Positions 1 through 5,435 of a stretch of DNA of 38,056 bases are shown in pieces. Within the stretch, counting starts at the first letter, position 1. The number at the start of each line of letters is the position of its first letter. A program made the position numbers and the translations under genes. Source of the stretch: Thermoplasmata archaeon (GTDB taxonomy: Archaea > Thermoplasmatota > Thermoplasmata > Lutacidiplasmatales > UBA184); assembly GCA_022749845.1 (NCBI GenBank), contig JAKIWX010000007.1, positions 1-38,056 on the forward strand, written 5' to 3'. Below the pieces are notes generated by a model that searched no databases, was not told where the DNA came from, and was given only the letters and a program-made list of their open reading frames with translations.

Positions 1-76
1 AGCCGCCCCACCTTTCAATCGCTACCGGGAGAAAGAACTCTCGAGCAATACTTGCAAGCGTAAGCATCTAGAGGCC

Positions 77-94
77 AAGGCCCGAGCGGATTCG
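77..94 (-). repeat. tRNA-Gln 3'-end repeat, copy 1 (att-like)
   Basis: This copy matches the 18-nt 3' end of the tRNA-Gln gene at 16 of 18 positions, including an unbroken 14-base match at 81-94. It has the same orientation as the tRNA. It lies in gene-free DNA about 240 bp before the first gene and forms the left edge of module A. Confidence 0.7.
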
Positions 95-302
95 TAGGGA
101 AAGGCCCAGCGGGAGATATCGATGTGAATCTGGCTAGCTTTCTATCGCCTGCCAACAACCACGGCGTGAGGAGGGTGATTCCAGCCGCTGCGAGAGGGTG
201 AGTCAAGGCCGTGCCGATCGGACGCGATTCCTGGGACGTGCAGGCTTGCCGCCCGCAACGCGCGGGAGAGGACACGCGAAGCAAGACCGTTCCGGCAGCA
301 TA

Positions 303-316
303 TTATATATATTTAA
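303..316 (+). promoter_or_regulatory. TATA box of the 336 gene
   Basis: An A/T-only run (tatatatatttaaa) stands out in G+C-rich DNA. Its centre is about 26 bp before the ATG at 336, the usual archaeal TATA-to-start distance. The transcript should therefore begin at or next to the start codon, giving a leaderless mRNA. Confidence 0.75.
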
Positions 317-335
317 ACGAGCGTCATCTCGTCGT

Positions 336-902
336 ATGCGTATCGAAGGTTCGCTGATCCGAGACGCCCGGGAGCGTCCGCTACCGGCGGGCATGCGGTC
401 GGCTAGTAGGGTCCGTCGGGGGAGGCCGCGAGTTCGATATCGGCCGATTGTCCGCTCGCCCGAGGACGTTCGATCGCTTCGACGTCACGGAGTCCCCGTT
501 TTCCTCGTGACGGACGAGTGGGTAACTCAGAGTCGATACCCGGTCCGATTCGACCCCTGGCTCGCGGTGCCGGAGTCGATCGCCGGAAGCTTCGATTCCG
601 CCTACCGGATTCTTCGCATCCGCGACGAGGACGCCTTGAGGCGTCCGGGGCTTGCGGAACTCGTCACTTGGCTTCTGCGGTTCGATCCTCTCGCCGCTCG
701 AGCGGTCGCGCTCCGCAATCGAGATGCGATTCCCGCCCTCGAACTGTACCGACGCATTCGCAACGAGGGACTCGAAGGGCCGGCCACGAAGGTCCGTCTC
801 CAGCAGCTCATGCCCTCCATCCCTAGGGTCGGGCCGTCGCTCCCGGCCAAGGACCTCGCATGGGCGGATCGGAACAACCCGGAGCTCAAGTCCACGGCAT
901 GA
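336..902 (+). CDS. Hypothetical protein paired with a nucleotidyltransferase
   Basis: I do not recognise this 188-residue protein. The N-terminal 35 residues or so are Arg-rich. The C-terminal half (about 110-175) is predicted helical with many Leu, Ala and Arg residues and could bind nucleic acid or its partner. An in-frame start exists at 198, but I chose the ATG at 336 because the TATA box at 303-316 sits about 26 bp upstream of it, implying a leaderless transcript. The stop overlaps the start of the next gene as ATGA, so the two are translationally coupled. By analogy with toxin-antitoxin or Abi pairs that use nucleotidyltransferases, it may be the partner or regulator of that enzyme. That is inference from context only. 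Confidence 0.6.
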   Translation: MRIEGSLIRDARERPLPAGMRSASRVRRGRPRVRYRPIVRSPEDVRSLRRHGVPVFLVTDEWVTQSRYPVRFDPWLAVPESIAGSFDSAYRILRIRDEDALRRPGLAELVTWLLRFDPLAARAVALRNRDAIPALELYRRIRNEGLEGPATKVRLQQLMPSIPRVGPSLPAKDLAWADRNNPELKSTA

Positions 903-1477
903 GCGCAACAACGGTCGATCTCGCCGATGTGATCCTACGCGGACACGGGATCCAGTACGTAGTGGTCGGAGGACAGGCGGTCGCCCGAACCGTCCGGACC
1001 GGTACCGTCGACGTGGACGTCATGGTGACGACCTCGGACTTTCAGGGAACCATCGAGCGCCTGCTCAAGGATCCGCGGATACGCCTGCGAGGCATGCGAG
1101 AGGGGCTCGCCCTCCTCTCGATCGAGAGCGCCCGGGGTGCGGGGCTCGACATTCTGGACTCCGCCCCGTTCGCCGGAGACCAATCCGGCGGAGAGTTCTA
1201 CCGCTACCTCGTCGAGGAGGAATCGAGCGAATCGGCAGGCGTCCGCTACGCCTCGACCGCCATCGTCTGGTACACCCGCCTGCTGACGTCTCGGTGGAAG
1301 GTCTACGCCGAAAAGATTCTCGTGAACATCCTGGACGGCGCCGATCCCGGCCTACTCGCCCAGGCAGAGCGGATCGCAAGACGCTTCGGAACGCTCGAAC
1401 TCGTGCGGTCTCGTTTGGAGTATGTGCGGCGAGAGCTCGGCGGACGGCGCGAGCGGCCGAGAGAGCGGCTCCCATAG
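899..1477 (+). CDS. Nucleotidyltransferase-fold protein (DUF6036/AbiEii-like)
   Basis: This 192-residue protein has the signature of the DNA polymerase beta nucleotidyltransferase superfamily. It shows Gly-Gly (VVVGGQAVAR, about residue 21) followed by D-x-D in TVDVDVMV (about 38-41) and a third acidic site in GLDILD near 85, which together would bind metal and NTP. Such proteins add nucleotides to tRNA, proteins or antibiotics; stand-alone forms of this size often serve in toxin-antitoxin or abortive-infection systems. The ATG at 899 overlaps the upstream TGA by four bases, so both belong to one leaderless operon. The pair is the whole cargo of module A between repeats 77 and 1611. The superfamily is confident; substrate and toxin role are not. 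Confidence 0.75.
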   Translation: MSATTVDLADVILRGHGIQYVVVGGQAVARTVRTGTVDVDVMVTTSDFQGTIERLLKDPRIRLRGMREGLALLSIESARGAGLDILDSAPFAGDQSGGEFYRYLVEEESSESAGVRYASTAIVWYTRLLTSRWKVYAEKILVNILDGADPGLLAQAERIARRFGTLELVRSRLEYVRRELGGRRERPRERLP

Positions 1478-1887
1478 TCGCTTCCGAGACATCCTGACAG
1501 CTTGCGATCGCTCCCCTACGGTGAAGGAGGACGAAGCCGGCTCGATCAAGGTCGGTGCAACCTAGTCGGCGGCAGCGGTGCGGCCCCACAAAGGCAAGAG
1601 CATGGTCGGGTAGCCCCGTGCGGATTCGCTCGCTGCTACAGTACGAGGGCTCGCATCACCGAGGTGGAGCACGCACCTCCCGCGGCCTTCCTACGGTCAT
1701 TCTTCGCTGGTGATGTTCCGTGTCTACCCACTTTGGGCCCTCCAACGGGGTCGCCATTCGGAGGGGGACCAGACCGCGTCGCGAGGGGGTGCGGGATGGG
1801 CTCGGGCCAGGAAGGAACCCAACGCGACAAGCGCGAAACGAAGCATCTATCATCACGACCTCTATAGGCGCTCCTCGCGGGAGCTCA
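1478..1887. other. Gene-free module junction A/B
   Basis: No credible gene is visible in these 410 bases. The stretch holds repeat copy 2 (1611-1628) that separates modules A and B. A TATA-like tctatagg at 1861-1868, about 24 bp before the ATG at 1888, may serve the oxidoreductase gene. Confidence 0.6.
1611..1628 (-). repeat. tRNA-Gln 3'-end repeat, copy 2 (att-like)
   Basis: This copy matches the tRNA-Gln 3' end at 17 of 18 positions (one A-to-T change at its ninth base) and has the tRNA's orientation. The match stops at the next base on the tRNA-body side. It lies in gene-free DNA between the nucleotidyltransferase and the oxidoreductase. Confidence 0.8.
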
Positions 1888-3270
1888 ATGGGCGCGAAAG
1901 GGTTGGAAAATCTTCAGAGCGAGGTGCGGGGTGACGTCATCCTCCCAGGGCAGGAGCGGTACGAGGAGGCCCGAAAGGTCTACAACGCGATGATCGACAA
2001 GCGCCCGGCGGCGGTCGTCCGAGTATCGGGGGTAGCCGACGTGATCGCCACGGTCAAGGCGGCGCACTCGGCCGGTCTCGCTGTGGCAGTCCGGGGAGGC
2101 GGGCATAGCGTCCCTGGGTTTGGGACTGCCGACGGGGCCGTTGTCGTCGACCTCCAACGGATGCGCGGAATCCGTGTGGACCCCAAGACTCGGTCCGCAT
2201 GGGCCGAGGGGGGGTGCACGTGGGGAGATTTCAACCACGCTACGCACGCATTTGGTCTCGGCACGACGGGTGGGATCATCTCGACCACCGGTATCGGTGG
2301 CCTCACTCTCGGGGGCGGAATCGGCTACCTGACACGTGGCCGGGGCCTGTCTCTGGACAACGTGGCCGGGGCCGATGTAGTCCTGGCTGACGGGTCCTTC
2401 GTGTCCGCCTCGGCCGAGACGAATCCCGACCTTCTCTGGGCCCTGCGGGGAGGAGGGGGGAACTTCGGCGTGGTGACCAACTTCCAGTTCCGCCTTCATC
2501 CGGTGACCCAGATCTTCGGGGGTCCCATCTTCTTCGAGCGCGAGGACGCGGAGAAGGTGATCCGCGCCTACGACAAGTACATCGTCAACGCGCCGCGCGA
2601 GCTTGGGGCGTTCTTCGCCTGGCAGATTGCCCCGCCCGTGCCGTTCATCCCCCCAGAGCGCCAGGGGGACCGGCTCTGCGCCATCGTCACCTGTTGGTCC
2701 GGACCGCTCGACCAGGCGAAGAAGGCCATCGCCCCGCTCCGCGAGGCGGCCCCCGTGGTGGCCGAGCTCCAGGCGGAGATGCCCTACCCCACCCTGAACG
2801 CGGCCTTCGACGGTCTCGTACCTCCAGGCCTGCAGCATTACTGGAAGGCGGCGTACGGCGGACCGCTCTCCGACGGGGTCATCGCCGCGCACCTCAAGCA
2901 CGGACCCGGTCTTCCAGCGGTCAATTCGACGATGCACATCTACCCGATCAACGGGGCAGTGCACGACGTGGGCGCCGACGAGACCGCGTTCGGCTATCGT
3001 CACGCCCAATATGCGACCGTAATCGCGGGAATGTGGCCCGACCCGGCGATGAACGATTCAAGCATCAAGTGGGTGCGAGACTACTACCAAGCGATCGCCC
3101 CGTTCTCCGAGAAGGGCGGCTACATCAATTTCATGGCGAGCGACGACGCGGACAAGGTCCGGGCCAACTACGGCAGAAGCTACGATCGACTGCTCCAAGT
3201 GAAAACCAAGTTCGATCCCGGGAACACGTTCCGGATCAACCAGAACATCAGCACGGCTGCCAAAATGTAG
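1888..3270 (+). CDS. FAD-linked oxidoreductase, BBE (berberine bridge) type
   Basis: This 460-residue protein has the PCMH/VAO layout: an N-terminal FAD-binding domain (about 35-205) with RGGGHS at 69-74, the GGGIGYLTRG stretch and LRGGGGNFGVVTNF, then a C-terminal BBE domain ending in the typical YDRLLQVKTKFDPGNTFRINQN pattern split over 430-455. His73 is the expected site of covalent FAD attachment. The second attachment Cys seen in bicovalent members is absent: the loop reads TTGGIISTTGIGG. Family members oxidise sugars, alcohols or alkaloid-like substrates with O2; the substrate here is unknown. The ATG at 1888 follows a GGAG at 5-base spacing; longer in-frame starts lack support. It is the only gene of module B and is of bacterial type, consistent with transfer. 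Confidence 0.9.
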   Translation: MGAKGLENLQSEVRGDVILPGQERYEEARKVYNAMIDKRPAAVVRVSGVADVIATVKAAHSAGLAVAVRGGGHSVPGFGTADGAVVVDLQRMRGIRVDPKTRSAWAEGGCTWGDFNHATHAFGLGTTGGIISTTGIGGLTLGGGIGYLTRGRGLSLDNVAGADVVLADGSFVSASAETNPDLLWALRGGGGNFGVVTNFQFRLHPVTQIFGGPIFFEREDAEKVIRAYDKYIVNAPRELGAFFAWQIAPPVPFIPPERQGDRLCAIVTCWSGPLDQAKKAIAPLREAAPVVAELQAEMPYPTLNAAFDGLVPPGLQHYWKAAYGGPLSDGVIAAHLKHGPGLPAVNSTMHIYPINGAVHDVGADETAFGYRHAQYATVIAGMWPDPAMNDSSIKWVRDYYQAIAPFSEKGGYINFMASDDADKVRANYGRSYDRLLQVKTKFDPGNTFRINQNISTAAKM

Positions 3271-3646
3271 ATCGTCAGAGCTTCGGGCCCGGAGAACCCA
3301 CCCACCGCCTAGGCCGTCCAGCGGACGGGTTGGAATCAGCCGCTGCCTTTCGCGCCCTTGGGAAGGCACCCCGTTCGATTAGGGCCAGGAGGGACGTACG
3401 GCCGGGAAAGTGCTCGCGCAACTATGAGGATGAGATCTAGCCCCGAGCGGATCCGCCTTCGGTTGCCGACGAAGTGGGATACACCGCTGACGGCGGAGTC
3501 TTGGCTGGCCGCACAGCTCGGAACGGCCTCGCCCCACCATGCATCCGGCCGGTTTGCCAGCTCTGCCGTCGCGCACGGGTCCGGCTGACAGAAGTGAGCC
3601 GGAGTGCTGACAAGCTTCGCCCTACCGGAGACCCGAGGGACTGGGA
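3271..3646. other. Gene-free module junction B/C
   Basis: No convincing gene is visible. A short frame starting at 3424 runs straight through the repeat and has no family resemblance. The stretch contains repeat copy 3 (3438-3455), the boundary between the oxidoreductase module and the arsenic module. Confidence 0.6.
3438..3455 (-). repeat. tRNA-Gln 3'-end repeat, copy 3 (att-like)
   Basis: The first 15 bases are identical to the tRNA-Gln 3' end at 5363-5377, and 17 of 18 match overall (one T-to-C change). Orientation is the same as the tRNA. It marks the distal end of the 1.9-kb arsenic module that abuts the tRNA. Confidence 0.85.
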
Positions 3647-4342
3647 CTAGGTCGATGTCTCGGTGCGACCGGAGCCTCGGTCGAGTCGGTCCACCGACCT
3701 CGGTCGCCATAGTGCGGCGACAAGGCAAGCCCCGAGAGGAACCGCGGTCAGGTAGATCCATAGTCCTGAGTAGGTGGCCGAAAGGACCGCGGGTGCTAGC
3801 GTCCTCGCAGGGTTGAGGGAGCTCCCCGACCACGCTCCGATAAAGTACGTAGAGAGCCCCACGACAGCCGGCGGTAGCAGGACCCGCCACCGATGGCGTC
3901 CTTCACCCCGATCCGCGAGGAGGAACACTGCGCCGACGAGGGCGGCGGTGAAGGCGAGCTCTCCGACAAAAGCTCGTAAGATGTCGCCATGGGCCGGGAG
4001 CGTCGCCCCGAGGTGGGCAAAGTCCCCCACAGCTCCGAGCACCAACGCACTCCCGAGGAACGCTCCGGATATCTGAGCGACCAGGTAGAGGGGGACTTCC
4101 CGCCAAGCGATTCGACCGCTGAGAGCGAGCGCCAGTGTGACGACTGGGTTGAGATGGGCCCCCGAGAGATGTATGAACAGGAAGATGGGCACCAAGACGG
4201 CGAGAAACCAGGCCGAGGCCAACATCCACTGGGGGATTCCTCCGAACCGACCTCCAAGGACGATGCTCCCGGTGCCGATGCCGACGAGGAGTGCTGTCCC
4301 GGCAGCCTCGCCAGCGGCGCGGCTCGCGACGGAGTCGCTCAC
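3647..4342 (-). CDS. MIP-family channel (aquaporin/aquaglyceroporin) of an arsenic cassette
   Basis: This 231-residue protein has six hydrophobic spans and the two half-helix loops of the major intrinsic protein family. The first loop reads SGAHLNPVVT (N65-P66-V67) and the second SGSSLNPAR (N177-A179, with the selectivity-filter Arg at 180), so the first NPA is NPV. The GTG start at 4342 overlaps the arsC stop as GTGA; upstream in-frame codons would lie deep inside arsC. Known: MIP channels conduct As(OH)3, and Sinorhizobium meliloti couples AqpS with ArsC so that arsenite made inside flows out by the channel. No ArsB or Acr3 pump is seen here, so the same logic is likely. The family is certain, the substrate is inferred. 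Confidence 0.88.
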   Translation of the reverse strand: MSDSVASRAAGEAAGTALLVGIGTGSIVLGGRFGGIPQWMLASAWFLAVLVPIFLFIHLSGAHLNPVVTLALALSGRIAWREVPLYLVAQISGAFLGSALVLGAVGDFAHLGATLPAHGDILRAFVGELAFTAALVGAVFLLADRGEGRHRWRVLLPPAVVGLSTYFIGAWSGSSLNPARTLAPAVLSATYSGLWIYLTAVPLGACLVAALWRPRSVDRLDRGSGRTETST

Positions 4343-4788
4343 CTGGACTGGCGGTGAGGCATGTCGGCGGCTCGTCGATCCGAGAGGAGGAGTTCCGCTC
4401 TGAGTCCGCGGACGAGCGACACAAGGCGGTCGCGGACCCGACGGAAGCCCTCGTCGTCCAGCTTCGCAGGGTCCTCCAAGCTCCAGTCCCGAAGCTCCAG
4501 GGACTTGAGACGCGCAGGACAACTCGCGTCATCCAGGCAGCCCATCGTAACAAGGACCCGCGCCCGGTCCGTCAACTCCGGGGAGAGGTGCCTGGGGCGG
4601 TGCTCGGGGAGGGCGAGCTGGATCTCCTTGAGCATCGGACCGGTGCGCGGATTGGGAGCTGCAGCGGGCCTCGTTCCTGCGGAGGTCGCCCTCCAGTCGC
4701 CCGGCGGGTCGGCGTTGAACATCGACTCCGCCATGAGCGATCGGGCGGCGTTTTCCACGCAGATGAACACGACCAGCTTCTCTGCCAT
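4339..4788 (-). CDS. arsC: Arsenate reductase, thioredoxin-coupled LMW-phosphatase type
   Basis: The enzyme reduces arsenate to arsenite in the cytoplasm. The 149-residue protein starts with the C-x5-R phosphate loop CVENAARS (Cys10, Arg16). The relay cysteines follow in TMGCLDDASCP (Cys84 and Cys90), and the aspartate loop is DWSLEDPAK (Asp106). This three-cysteine pattern fits the thioredoxin-linked class. I placed the start at ATG 4788, six codons inside the longest frame, because it overlaps the stop of the upstream Cys-rich peptide as TGATG. It overlaps the aquaporin start by four bases. The three minus-strand genes therefore form one tightly coupled operon. Confidence 0.9.
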   Translation of the reverse strand: MAEKLVVFICVENAARSLMAESMFNADPPGDWRATSAGTRPAAAPNPRTGPMLKEIQLALPEHRPRHLSPELTDRARVLVTMGCLDDASCPARLKSLELRDWSLEDPAKLDDEGFRRVRDRLVSLVRGLRAELLLSDRRAADMPHRQSR

Positions 4789-4865
4789 CAGCAGCAGTCG
4801 TCGCAACAGTCAGGGCAGCAGGGCGGCGAACTGCAGCACGGCGCCCCATGGTAATCTTCGGGCAT
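4788..4865 (-). CDS. 25-residue peptide with four Cys-Cys pairs, first gene of the ars operon
   Basis: This short frame encodes 25 residues; 8 of the last 16 are cysteine, arranged as vicinal pairs at 10-11, 16-17, 20-21 and 24-25, spaced by Ser, Pro and Asp. The ATG at 4865 has the strongest ribosome-binding site I noticed in the window, GGAGGAGG at 4871-4878 with a 5-base spacer, and arsC has none of its own because its ATG overlaps this stop as TGATG. The peptide is therefore very likely translated and needed for arsC translation. Known: vicinal cysteines bind As(III), as in ArsD. Inferred: an arsenite or metal buffer, or a carrier to the channel; a regulatory leader peptide sensing cysteine or As(III) is the alternative. 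I know no named family for it. Confidence 0.75.
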   Translation of the reverse strand: MPEDYHGAPCCSSPPCCPDCCDDCC

Positions 4866-4870
4866 GGTAA

Positions 4871-4878
4871 CCTCCTCC
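4871..4878 (-). promoter_or_regulatory. Strong Shine-Dalgarno of the Cys-rich peptide
   Basis: On the minus strand GGAGGAGG ends five bases before the ATG at 4865. This is near-perfect complementarity to the 16S rRNA tail. It fixes the peptide's start and marks it as the ribosome entry point for the peptide-arsC-aquaporin operon. Confidence 0.75.
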
Positions 4879-4896
4879 ACTTCAATTGCTGAAGGA

Positions 4897-4904
4897 CTAA
4901 TAAC
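4897..4904 (+). promoter_or_regulatory. TATA-like box of the HxlR regulator
   Basis: An A/T-rich ctaataac is centred about 26 bp before the GTG at 4926, predicting a leaderless mRNA for the regulator. It lies in the 60-bp divergent gap shared with the ars operon, so a protein bound here could control both directions. Confidence 0.5.
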
Positions 4905-4925
4905 GCGCCGCTACGTACGGACATA

Positions 4926-5252
4926 GTGTTGCAGAGTTGCGAAGGTAGCCTTGAATGTCCGTGCCCACCGATCGGGCTCATCGACGTGGTTGGGAAGAAG
5001 TGGGCGGTGTGCGTCGTCTCTCTGCTCGGAAAATATGGGACAGTACGGTTCGGGCCGATCCAGAGGTGCCTCTCGGGGGTCAGCCCGGCAACCTTGACCT
5101 CTACACTCCGGGCCCTTGAACGGGCACGCTTGGTCGATCGAAGGTCGGTGGACGGAGCGAGGGGCCCTGTCAGGGCGTACCTCCTGACGCCGGCAGGACT
5201 CAAGCTCTATCTGAGCCTCCTACCCCTGGCGAGCTGGTTGCAATCAAACTGA
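4926..5252 (+). CDS. HxlR-family winged-helix regulator, Cys-rich N-terminus
   Basis: This 108-residue DNA-binding protein has the HxlR pattern: an N-terminal CP element, VVGKKWAVCVVSLL, a helix-turn-helix around GVSPATLTSTLRALERARLV (51-70) and a wing ending in YLLTPAGLKL. The GTG at 4926 is chosen because a TATA-like box lies about 26 bp upstream. Cysteines at 5, 11, 13 and 29 are more numerous than the single conserved HxlR cysteine, and a C-x5-C-x-C cluster could bind As(III) or report thiol oxidation. It is divergent from the peptide-arsC-aquaporin operon, where an ArsR repressor would normally sit, so it is probably the arsenic sensor. The family is secure; the ligand is inferred. Confidence 0.85.
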   Translation: MLQSCEGSLECPCPPIGLIDVVGKKWAVCVVSLLGKYGTVRFGPIQRCLSGVSPATLTSTLRALERARLVDRRSVDGARGPVRAYLLTPAGLKLYLSLLPLASWLQSN

Positions 5253-5339
5253 CTTTCTCTGCCCAGAACTGGGGACCATGTGGGAGCAACCGCTTGTTGG
5301 CCCGACGCGGTCGAGGTCGACGCGCGCGCTACGTGGGAC

Positions 5340-5362
5340 TAGCCCCCGTCGGCTTCGAACCG
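5340..5362 (-). repeat. Degenerate tRNA-Gln 3' fragment abutting the tRNA
   Basis: These 23 bases match the adjoining 23 bases of the tRNA gene (5363-5385) at 19 positions, including the whole TTCGAA T-loop core and the terminal GGGGCTA. The copy is in direct tandem with the tRNA end. It looks like a diverged tRNA 3' end left or delivered by an integration event. It may be the true right end of the arsenic module. Confidence 0.65.
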
Positions 5363-5435
5363 TAGCCCCGAGCGGATTCGAACCGCTGTCGCCGGCTCCA
5401 AAGGCCAGCATGCTTGGCCACTACACCACGGGGCT
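5363..5435 (-). tRNA. tRNA-Gln (anticodon TTG)
   Basis: The 73 nt fold into a full cloverleaf. The acceptor AGCCCCG pairs with CGGGGCT, the D stem is GTGT/GCAT (two G-U pairs), the anticodon stem is CTGGC/GCCGG with loop CTTTGGA, and the T stem is AGCGG/CCGCT with loop TTCGAAT. Anticodon TTG reads CAA (Gln). CCA is not encoded. A TATA-like element at 5459-5467 is centred about 28 bp upstream of the 5' end, so the gene is intact and self-promoted. Its last 18 nt are the source of the direct repeats to the left. Confidence 0.95.

Follow-up and report, generated by a model that had tools for sequence, protein, structure and literature searches.

Small gene cassettes at a tRNA-Gln gene of Thermoplasmata archaea: a likely integron-like array

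Introduction

How do several short groups of genes come to stand in a row beside one tRNA gene, each bordered by a copy of that gene's end? The question is raised by a stretch of 38,056 nucleotides (nt) from a Thermoplasmata archaeon (contig JAKIWX010000007.1 of assembly GCA_022749845.1). This stretch, called the window here, is one complete contig of the genome G000, whose assembly of 1.83 Mb is 88.5% complete. An earlier note on the window had proposed that single cassettes were inserted one after another at a tRNA-Gln gene, with an outcome similar to that of an integron. The locus is likely to be of this kind, an integron-like array of small mobile cassettes on tRNA-Gln that carry no integrase and would be recombined by an enzyme acting in trans.

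Copies of the tRNA end in the window

The 18-mer of the tRNA 3' end, TAGCCCCGAGCGGATTCG, matches the window at 5363 without mismatch, at 3438 and 1611 with one mismatch and at 77 with two, always in the same orientation, and the mismatch counts given in the earlier note are correct. With up to three mismatches allowed there are four matches, against a mean of 0.13 over 100 dinucleotide shuffles, none of which reached four or more. When the whole 1.83-Mb genome is searched, all matches with no or one mismatch fall inside the window cluster. The variant at 77-94 has a single copy beyond the window, on contig C158, which is the same locus. Its overlap with window positions 1-427 is at 98%, and from there C158 extends the locus leftwards to a flank in common with G005, a genome of the same genus, so the edge of the window does not truncate the array in nature. 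The copies lie in intergenic DNA, as the earlier note had claimed, and rather than being scattered they mark the borders of modules.

Arrays across the family

The survey covered 103 genomes of the same family (Lutacidiplasmatales, Thermoplasmatota) with the pattern CGAATCCGCYCGGGGCTA at up to one mismatch. These genomes are mostly or all metagenome assemblies, many of them fragmented; sites with more than two to three mismatches are under-counted, and the gene calls between sites come from a simple codon-usage script. Many of the genomes have two to seven copies of the pattern, all on the same strand of a single contig and no more than about 11 kb from tRNA-Gln, and the reversed control pattern has no match in any of the 103. 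The copies of the tRNA 3' end delimit inserted cassettes, giving 28 tRNA-Gln arrays with 52 modules (median 1.73 kb; 47 of them below 3.5 kb) in about a quarter of the family. The longest array, in G005, has five modules in a row. One array (G085) lies on contig JAKIVW010000026.1 of isolate AcS1-45, which is counted among the Ca. Lutacidiplasmatales of acidic pine-forest soil (PMC9287336).

The cassettes of the family are small, mostly one- or two-gene units, and often hold toxin-antitoxin or stress genes. Their cargo clusters include PIN/VapC, VapB, RelE/ParE-type and other antitoxin genes, whose position in the array varies between genomes. Further cargo consists of SnoaL, glyoxalase, DinB, MFS, methyltransferase, cyclase-TPR, Fic and beta-lactamase-family proteins.

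Different modules between constant flanks

The exchange of modules is seen on comparing the window, joined to C158, with G005. The two loci are colinear, matching at 72-78% in the upstream flank, 90% in the tRNA region and 82% in the downstream flank. The interior, about 7.4 kb at the window locus and 8.5 kb in G005, is unrelated save for four matches of 46-64 nt, all of them at repeat sites. None of the five modules of G005 is related to the three of the window. The earlier note had named the same modules and repeats in the same order in distant relatives as the mark of vertical inheritance; no such conservation of module order is seen.

Modules are also held in common as wholes. G099 and G114 have in common a module that is 86.4% identical along 1,595 bp, starting 5 nt ahead of one site and ending 1 nt past the next; its neighbours differ, since it adjoins the tRNA in G099 and follows another module in G114. 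The module pairs of G087/G088 and of G005/G077 terminate at sites, the match between G092 and G119 starts at a site, and G116 has two related copies of a module within one array. An empty site, which the earlier note had suggested looking for, is found with precision: G119 carries a module between its tRNA and the module that adjoins the tRNA in G092. Intact G119 aligns with G092 in two pieces split at the tRNA, whereas removing its first module in silico gives one continuous alignment of 2,305 bp. The extra module of G119 recurs in G021, from another genus, and the G021 copy is 87% identical to one in G095, from inside the tRNA onwards. By comparison, the XerA proteins of G021 (genus g7) and of genomes of genus g5, a comparison that does not include G095's own XerA, are about 53% identical. 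Transfer between genera is the simplest reading of this difference, and the cassettes appear to move as units across species and probably across genera.

Fixed flanks around different modules, the sharing of units, the empty site and the arrays across the family all bear out the serial integration of cassettes at the tRNA end that the earlier note proposed. The same evidence, together with the counts from the shuffles and from the reversed pattern, leaves a negligible probability that the repeats are due to chance, are tRNA pseudogenes or reflect an order inherited vertically, the last of which would not give entirely different modules in a genome of the same genus.

Module classes and their end motifs

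An alignment of 61 distal (right-end) sites divides the modules into classes that differ in their end motifs. In class A, the commonest, TGTATCCC (with up to one mismatch) stands 27-28 nt before the core in 25 of the 61 right ends, where 0.05 would be expected. Site 1 of the window belongs to this class; site 3 (77-94) is the weakest of the three repeats, with two mismatches and no class-A motif. Class B has a CTATCGGA-type sequence immediately ahead of the core, with its inverted form at some left ends. The left ends split into several unrelated classes. Fifteen of them, including that at window positions 5335-5362, have an imperfect second copy of the core 23 nt past the first.

Inverted ends raise the possibility of transposition by a casposase-like or transposase-like enzyme, with the 18-mer as the duplicated target site. 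Casposons are able to insert in tandem at one target gene, some class-B ends are mutually inverted, and the left ends of G027, G032 and G116 have the class-A motif inverted at the mirrored distance, above the 99% background. These three are the only ones among 117 left ends, however, so a transposition that duplicates its target fits poorly. A test for terminal inverted repeats failed on this count; the left ends are of several unrelated classes, and class-B modules encode tyrosine integrases, all of which makes this explanation very unlikely.

Integrases and the candidate recombinase

Class-B modules are the rarer ones, and it is with them that integrases are found. A tyrosine integrase lies directly at the site in G077 and G067 and beside the tRNA in G066; G117 has the C-terminal part alone, at the site, and G082 a fragment of a decayed integrase close to a distant repeat copy. 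Such remnants are seen only at class-B-like ends. Four integrases were aligned (G077, G067, G066 and G069, the last of which is not close to any tRNA-Gln site); the others are 49-55% identical to that of G077 (368 aa), and the residues R, HxLR, GH and Y typical of tyrosine recombinases are invariant. In class-A modules, no integrase is present among the genes tested with Pfam, and a PF00589 search of 61 genomes gave no match on the array contigs of G005, G010, G028, G031, G033 and G035. The window holds no integrase either, and a PF00589 search of the rest of its 88.5%-complete genome, where the earlier note had suggested looking for a tyrosine integrase, finds none. The earlier claim that the array lacks an integrase in cis therefore holds for the window and its genome but not for the family, as modules of some relatives carry a tyrosine integrase at the same site.

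The modules of the window, like the class-A modules tested, lack an integrase and retain the left and right attachment sites (attL and attR). In this, and in standing in tandem at a tRNA 3' end, they resemble cis-mobilizable elements (CIMEs), the decay products of integrative and conjugative elements (ICEs) and integrative and mobilizable elements (IMEs) of bacteria (PMC5704250). One could consider the modules to be decayed genomic islands of this sort, once provided with integrases and then shrunk by deletion. The class-B integrase modules at the same site and the fragments in G117 and G082 speak for such decay. The archaeal modules differ from CIMEs in being mostly 0.5-3.5 kb long, in having end motifs common to a whole class and in being common to species as units. 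Intact cassettes with both ends are common to different species and genera, which argues that the small form itself moves, and neither the tested class-A genes nor the six array contigs gave an integrase match. Decay is for these reasons somewhat improbable.

Which enzyme, then, could move class A? Three array genomes, G063, G080 and G096, contain no PF00589 protein except XerA and no PF00239 protein; G010, another array genome, also has XerA as its sole PF00589 protein, plus one weak PF00239 match. As the tested class-A modules have no integrase of their own, these genomes suggest that an enzyme acting in trans, either XerA or an integrase since lost, probably recombines the class-A cassettes. 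Xer recombinases act on pdif modules in Acinetobacter, and the class-A cassettes could be likened to these, with the host XerA as their recombinase. Yet the GC-rich core of the T-arm is unlike an 11-6-11 dif-type inverted repeat, the four genomes are 90-93% complete, and a transient integrase would give the same pattern. XerA as the enzyme of class A is accordingly an unlikely, though not a far-fetched, answer.

Several other candidates were rejected. A serine recombinase as the common agent is at odds with the absence of PF00239 from 7 of the 13 genomes checked. The second tyrosine integrase of G005 does not qualify as a class-A enzyme encoded elsewhere, as its neighbor is the 3' end of a tRNA-Arg-like gene where a contig stops (L236:4600-5500, G005:C116), and not the tRNA-Gln site. 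Viral carriers were sought in IMG/VR: none of the 13 contigs that match the class-A pattern runs on into the 3' end of tRNA-Gln, and no relative of the class-B integrase is present in that database. A plasmid carrier is not indicated, as only the FAD-oxidoreductase gene of the window was covered among the matches listed in a search of plasmid DNA.

Two observations concern integrases beyond the small modules. A 9.5-kb element at tRNA-Gln in G067 (L182:148-9299) encodes two tyrosine recombinases, along with several proteins that have no Pfam match, and is a candidate autonomous helper element. In G090, tRNA-Lys(CTT) is followed about 0.7 kb downstream by a member of the class-B integrase clade (G090:C61:15493-16785, L221), and integrases of this clade may thus act at more than one tRNA.

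A proposed mechanism

In the scheme that we favor, recombination would target the tRNA-Gln 3' end (T-loop, T-stem and acceptor strand). One end of each cassette would consist of a copy of the last 18-24 nt of the tRNA and the cassette's own subterminal recognition motif, and this site would be joined to the T-arm of tRNA-Gln by a trans-acting tyrosine recombinase. The tRNA would be rebuilt by the incoming copy, while the displaced tRNA tail would become the far end of the cassette. Since the tRNA is restored by the incoming copy, new cassettes would enter beside it and older ones would shift outwards. Excision of the cassettes as circles and the order of entry in general are predicted in the same way, and recombination activity is what we infer from the comparison of sequences. 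The most likely recombinase would be either host XerA or an integrase supplied by an autonomous element on a visit to the cell.

Some points weigh against this scheme. No integrase was found in the window genome at its 88.5% completeness, and the distal sites of the window are degenerate, so its cassettes may now be immobile. Also, class A and class B have different motifs, and it does not follow that the class-B integrase acts on class A.

Other tRNA genes as targets

Other tRNAs were covered in 0.82 Mb of the near-closed G010, within the array loci and in one family-wide search for tRNA-Lys. In G010, copies of the 3' end of tRNA-Lys(CTT) lie at +865 and +2731 (L360:163-2968) and one of tRNA-Val(TAC) at +3371 (L340:16424-19868), the latter closing a module with a VapBC-like pair; most other tRNAs in the 0.82 Mb have no downstream copies of their 3' ends. 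Across the family, eight genomes have the tRNA-Lys 18-mer again within 5 kb, in same-strand orientation. The window genome itself has a second, single-cassette site, where a 16/18 copy of the tRNA-Ala(CGC) 3' end at +1531 on C149 (L021:2900-4502) encloses what appear by inspection to be a RelBE-like pair and a methyltransferase. The earlier note was right about tRNA-Gln as a target, but its picture of one tRNA is too narrow, as tRNA-Lys, tRNA-Val and the tRNA-Ala of G000 show the pattern too. It is possible, and we suggest it only tentatively, that the T-arms of Gln, Lys, Val and Ala tRNAs are the insertion sites of one multi-locus integron-like system, with a TGTATCCC-type cassette family recombined by XerA or another trans-acting enzyme and a pool of cassettes circulating across genera.

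Genes of the window array

The coordinates of the window array are given in Table 1. Pfam agrees with the earlier note on the arsenic-type and FAD-oxidoreductase modules; its "nucleotidyltransferase pair" depends on motif inspection, as neither open reading frame (ORF) of module 3 has a Pfam match. As for the surroundings, the genes that neighbor tRNA-Gln upstream in most other genera are about 17 kb away in the window genome (window 5500-38056), and pyruvate kinase does not adjoin tRNA-Gln there. Contigs C19 and C81 of the same assembly have an identical 141-bp end (L018:1-141, L019:17495-17635), which is either an assembly break or a repeat.

Table 1. Sites, modules and genes of the tRNA-Gln array in the window
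Feature	Position	Strand	Basis
tRNA-Gln(TTG), array anchor	5362/5363-5435	-	ARAGORN; Rfam tRNA 60.4 bits
Attachment (att) site 0, tRNA 3' 18 nt (CGAATCCGCTCGGGGCTA)	5363-5380	-	pattern search
Module 1 left-end motif, second imperfect core copy yGGTTCGAAnCCGACnGGGGCTAnTCCC	5335-5362	-	end alignment
Module 1, arsenic-type cassette	3456-5362		between sites 0 and 1; Pfam
HxlR-family regulator, 108 aa, module 1	4926-5252	+	PF01638 1.3e-13
Low-molecular-weight phosphatase (LMWPc)/arsenate-reductase-type protein, 155 aa, module 1	4339-4806	-	PF01451 3.5e-18
MIP-family channel (aquaglyceroporin type), module 1	3647-4366	-	PF00230 3.9e-32
Class-A motif TGTATCCC, 28 nt ahead of site 1 core	3476-3483	-	end alignment
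att site 1, 1 mismatch	3438-3455	-	pattern search
Module 2, single-gene cassette	1629-3437		between sites 1 and 2
FAD-binding oxidoreductase with BBE domain (FAD_binding_4/BBE), module 2	1885-3270	+	PF01565 5.5e-30, PF08031 3.1e-11
att site 2, 1 mismatch	1611-1628	-	pattern search
Module 3, two-gene cassette, nucleotidyltransferase-like by motif inspection alone	95-1610		inspection; no Pfam match
ORF with GG...DVD nucleotidyltransferase-like motif, 205 aa, module 3	860-1477	+	inspection
att site 3, 2 mismatches, present again on overlapping C158	77-94	-	pattern search

Relation to known systems

Integrons, too, are ordered arrays of short, promiscuous cassettes, among which toxin-antitoxin and stress genes are frequent. 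The window array is not an integron by the test of the intI gene, as its genome has no PF00589 match, and its sites are tRNA 3' ends.

As bacteria are already reported to have tandem cassettes with tRNA repeats, arrays of this kind are not entirely new. The additive flexible genomic islands of Ca. Actinomarinales consist of small cassettes at tRNA genes with tRNA-end repeats (PMC7771536). In a similar island of Methylophilaceae (flexible genomic island 2, fGI-2), the final 20 nt of tRNA-Lys(ctt) recur, with sizes from 330 bp up (PMC10872708). Both kinds of array are made of small cassettes at a tRNA gene marked by its end repeat, and in the archaeal arrays too tRNA copies form the borders and the content differs at a fixed locus (G000/G005, G119/G092). 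The additive islands are bacterial, their cargo is mostly unknown or envelope genes, and the available text mentions neither end motifs specific to cassettes, nor exact swaps of units, nor an integrase class that goes with them.

The ssrA islands of Dehalococcoides also stand in tandem downstream of one RNA gene, with 20-bp copies of its 3' end between them, 15 without and 16 with an integration module (PMC3146451). They are bacterial, larger and served by a serine recombinase, DsiB, whereas the archaeal modules mostly have one or two genes, with tyrosine integrases in a minority class. Among archaea, the integrated mobile genetic elements (iMGEs) of Thaumarchaeota use tRNA 3' ends, and tyrosine-recombinase elements form arrays; in the available text of that study the iMGEs are complex multigene elements, and one-gene cassettes without an integrase are not described (PMC6563490). 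The earlier note knew of no archaeal system of small integrase-free cassettes in such an array, and the open-access literature likewise yielded no description of archaeal arrays of one-gene, integrase-free cassettes.

Significance

The end motifs defined here help to find more arrays, and a direct test is now possible of which recombinase recognizes the site made of the tRNA T-arm and its TGTATCCC flank. Most work on integron-like gene capture has dealt with bacteria, and here a whole family of uncultured archaea has ordered, exchangeable stacks of cassettes. Such arrays provide one way in which these acid-soil archaea could have come by part of their large accessory gene content.

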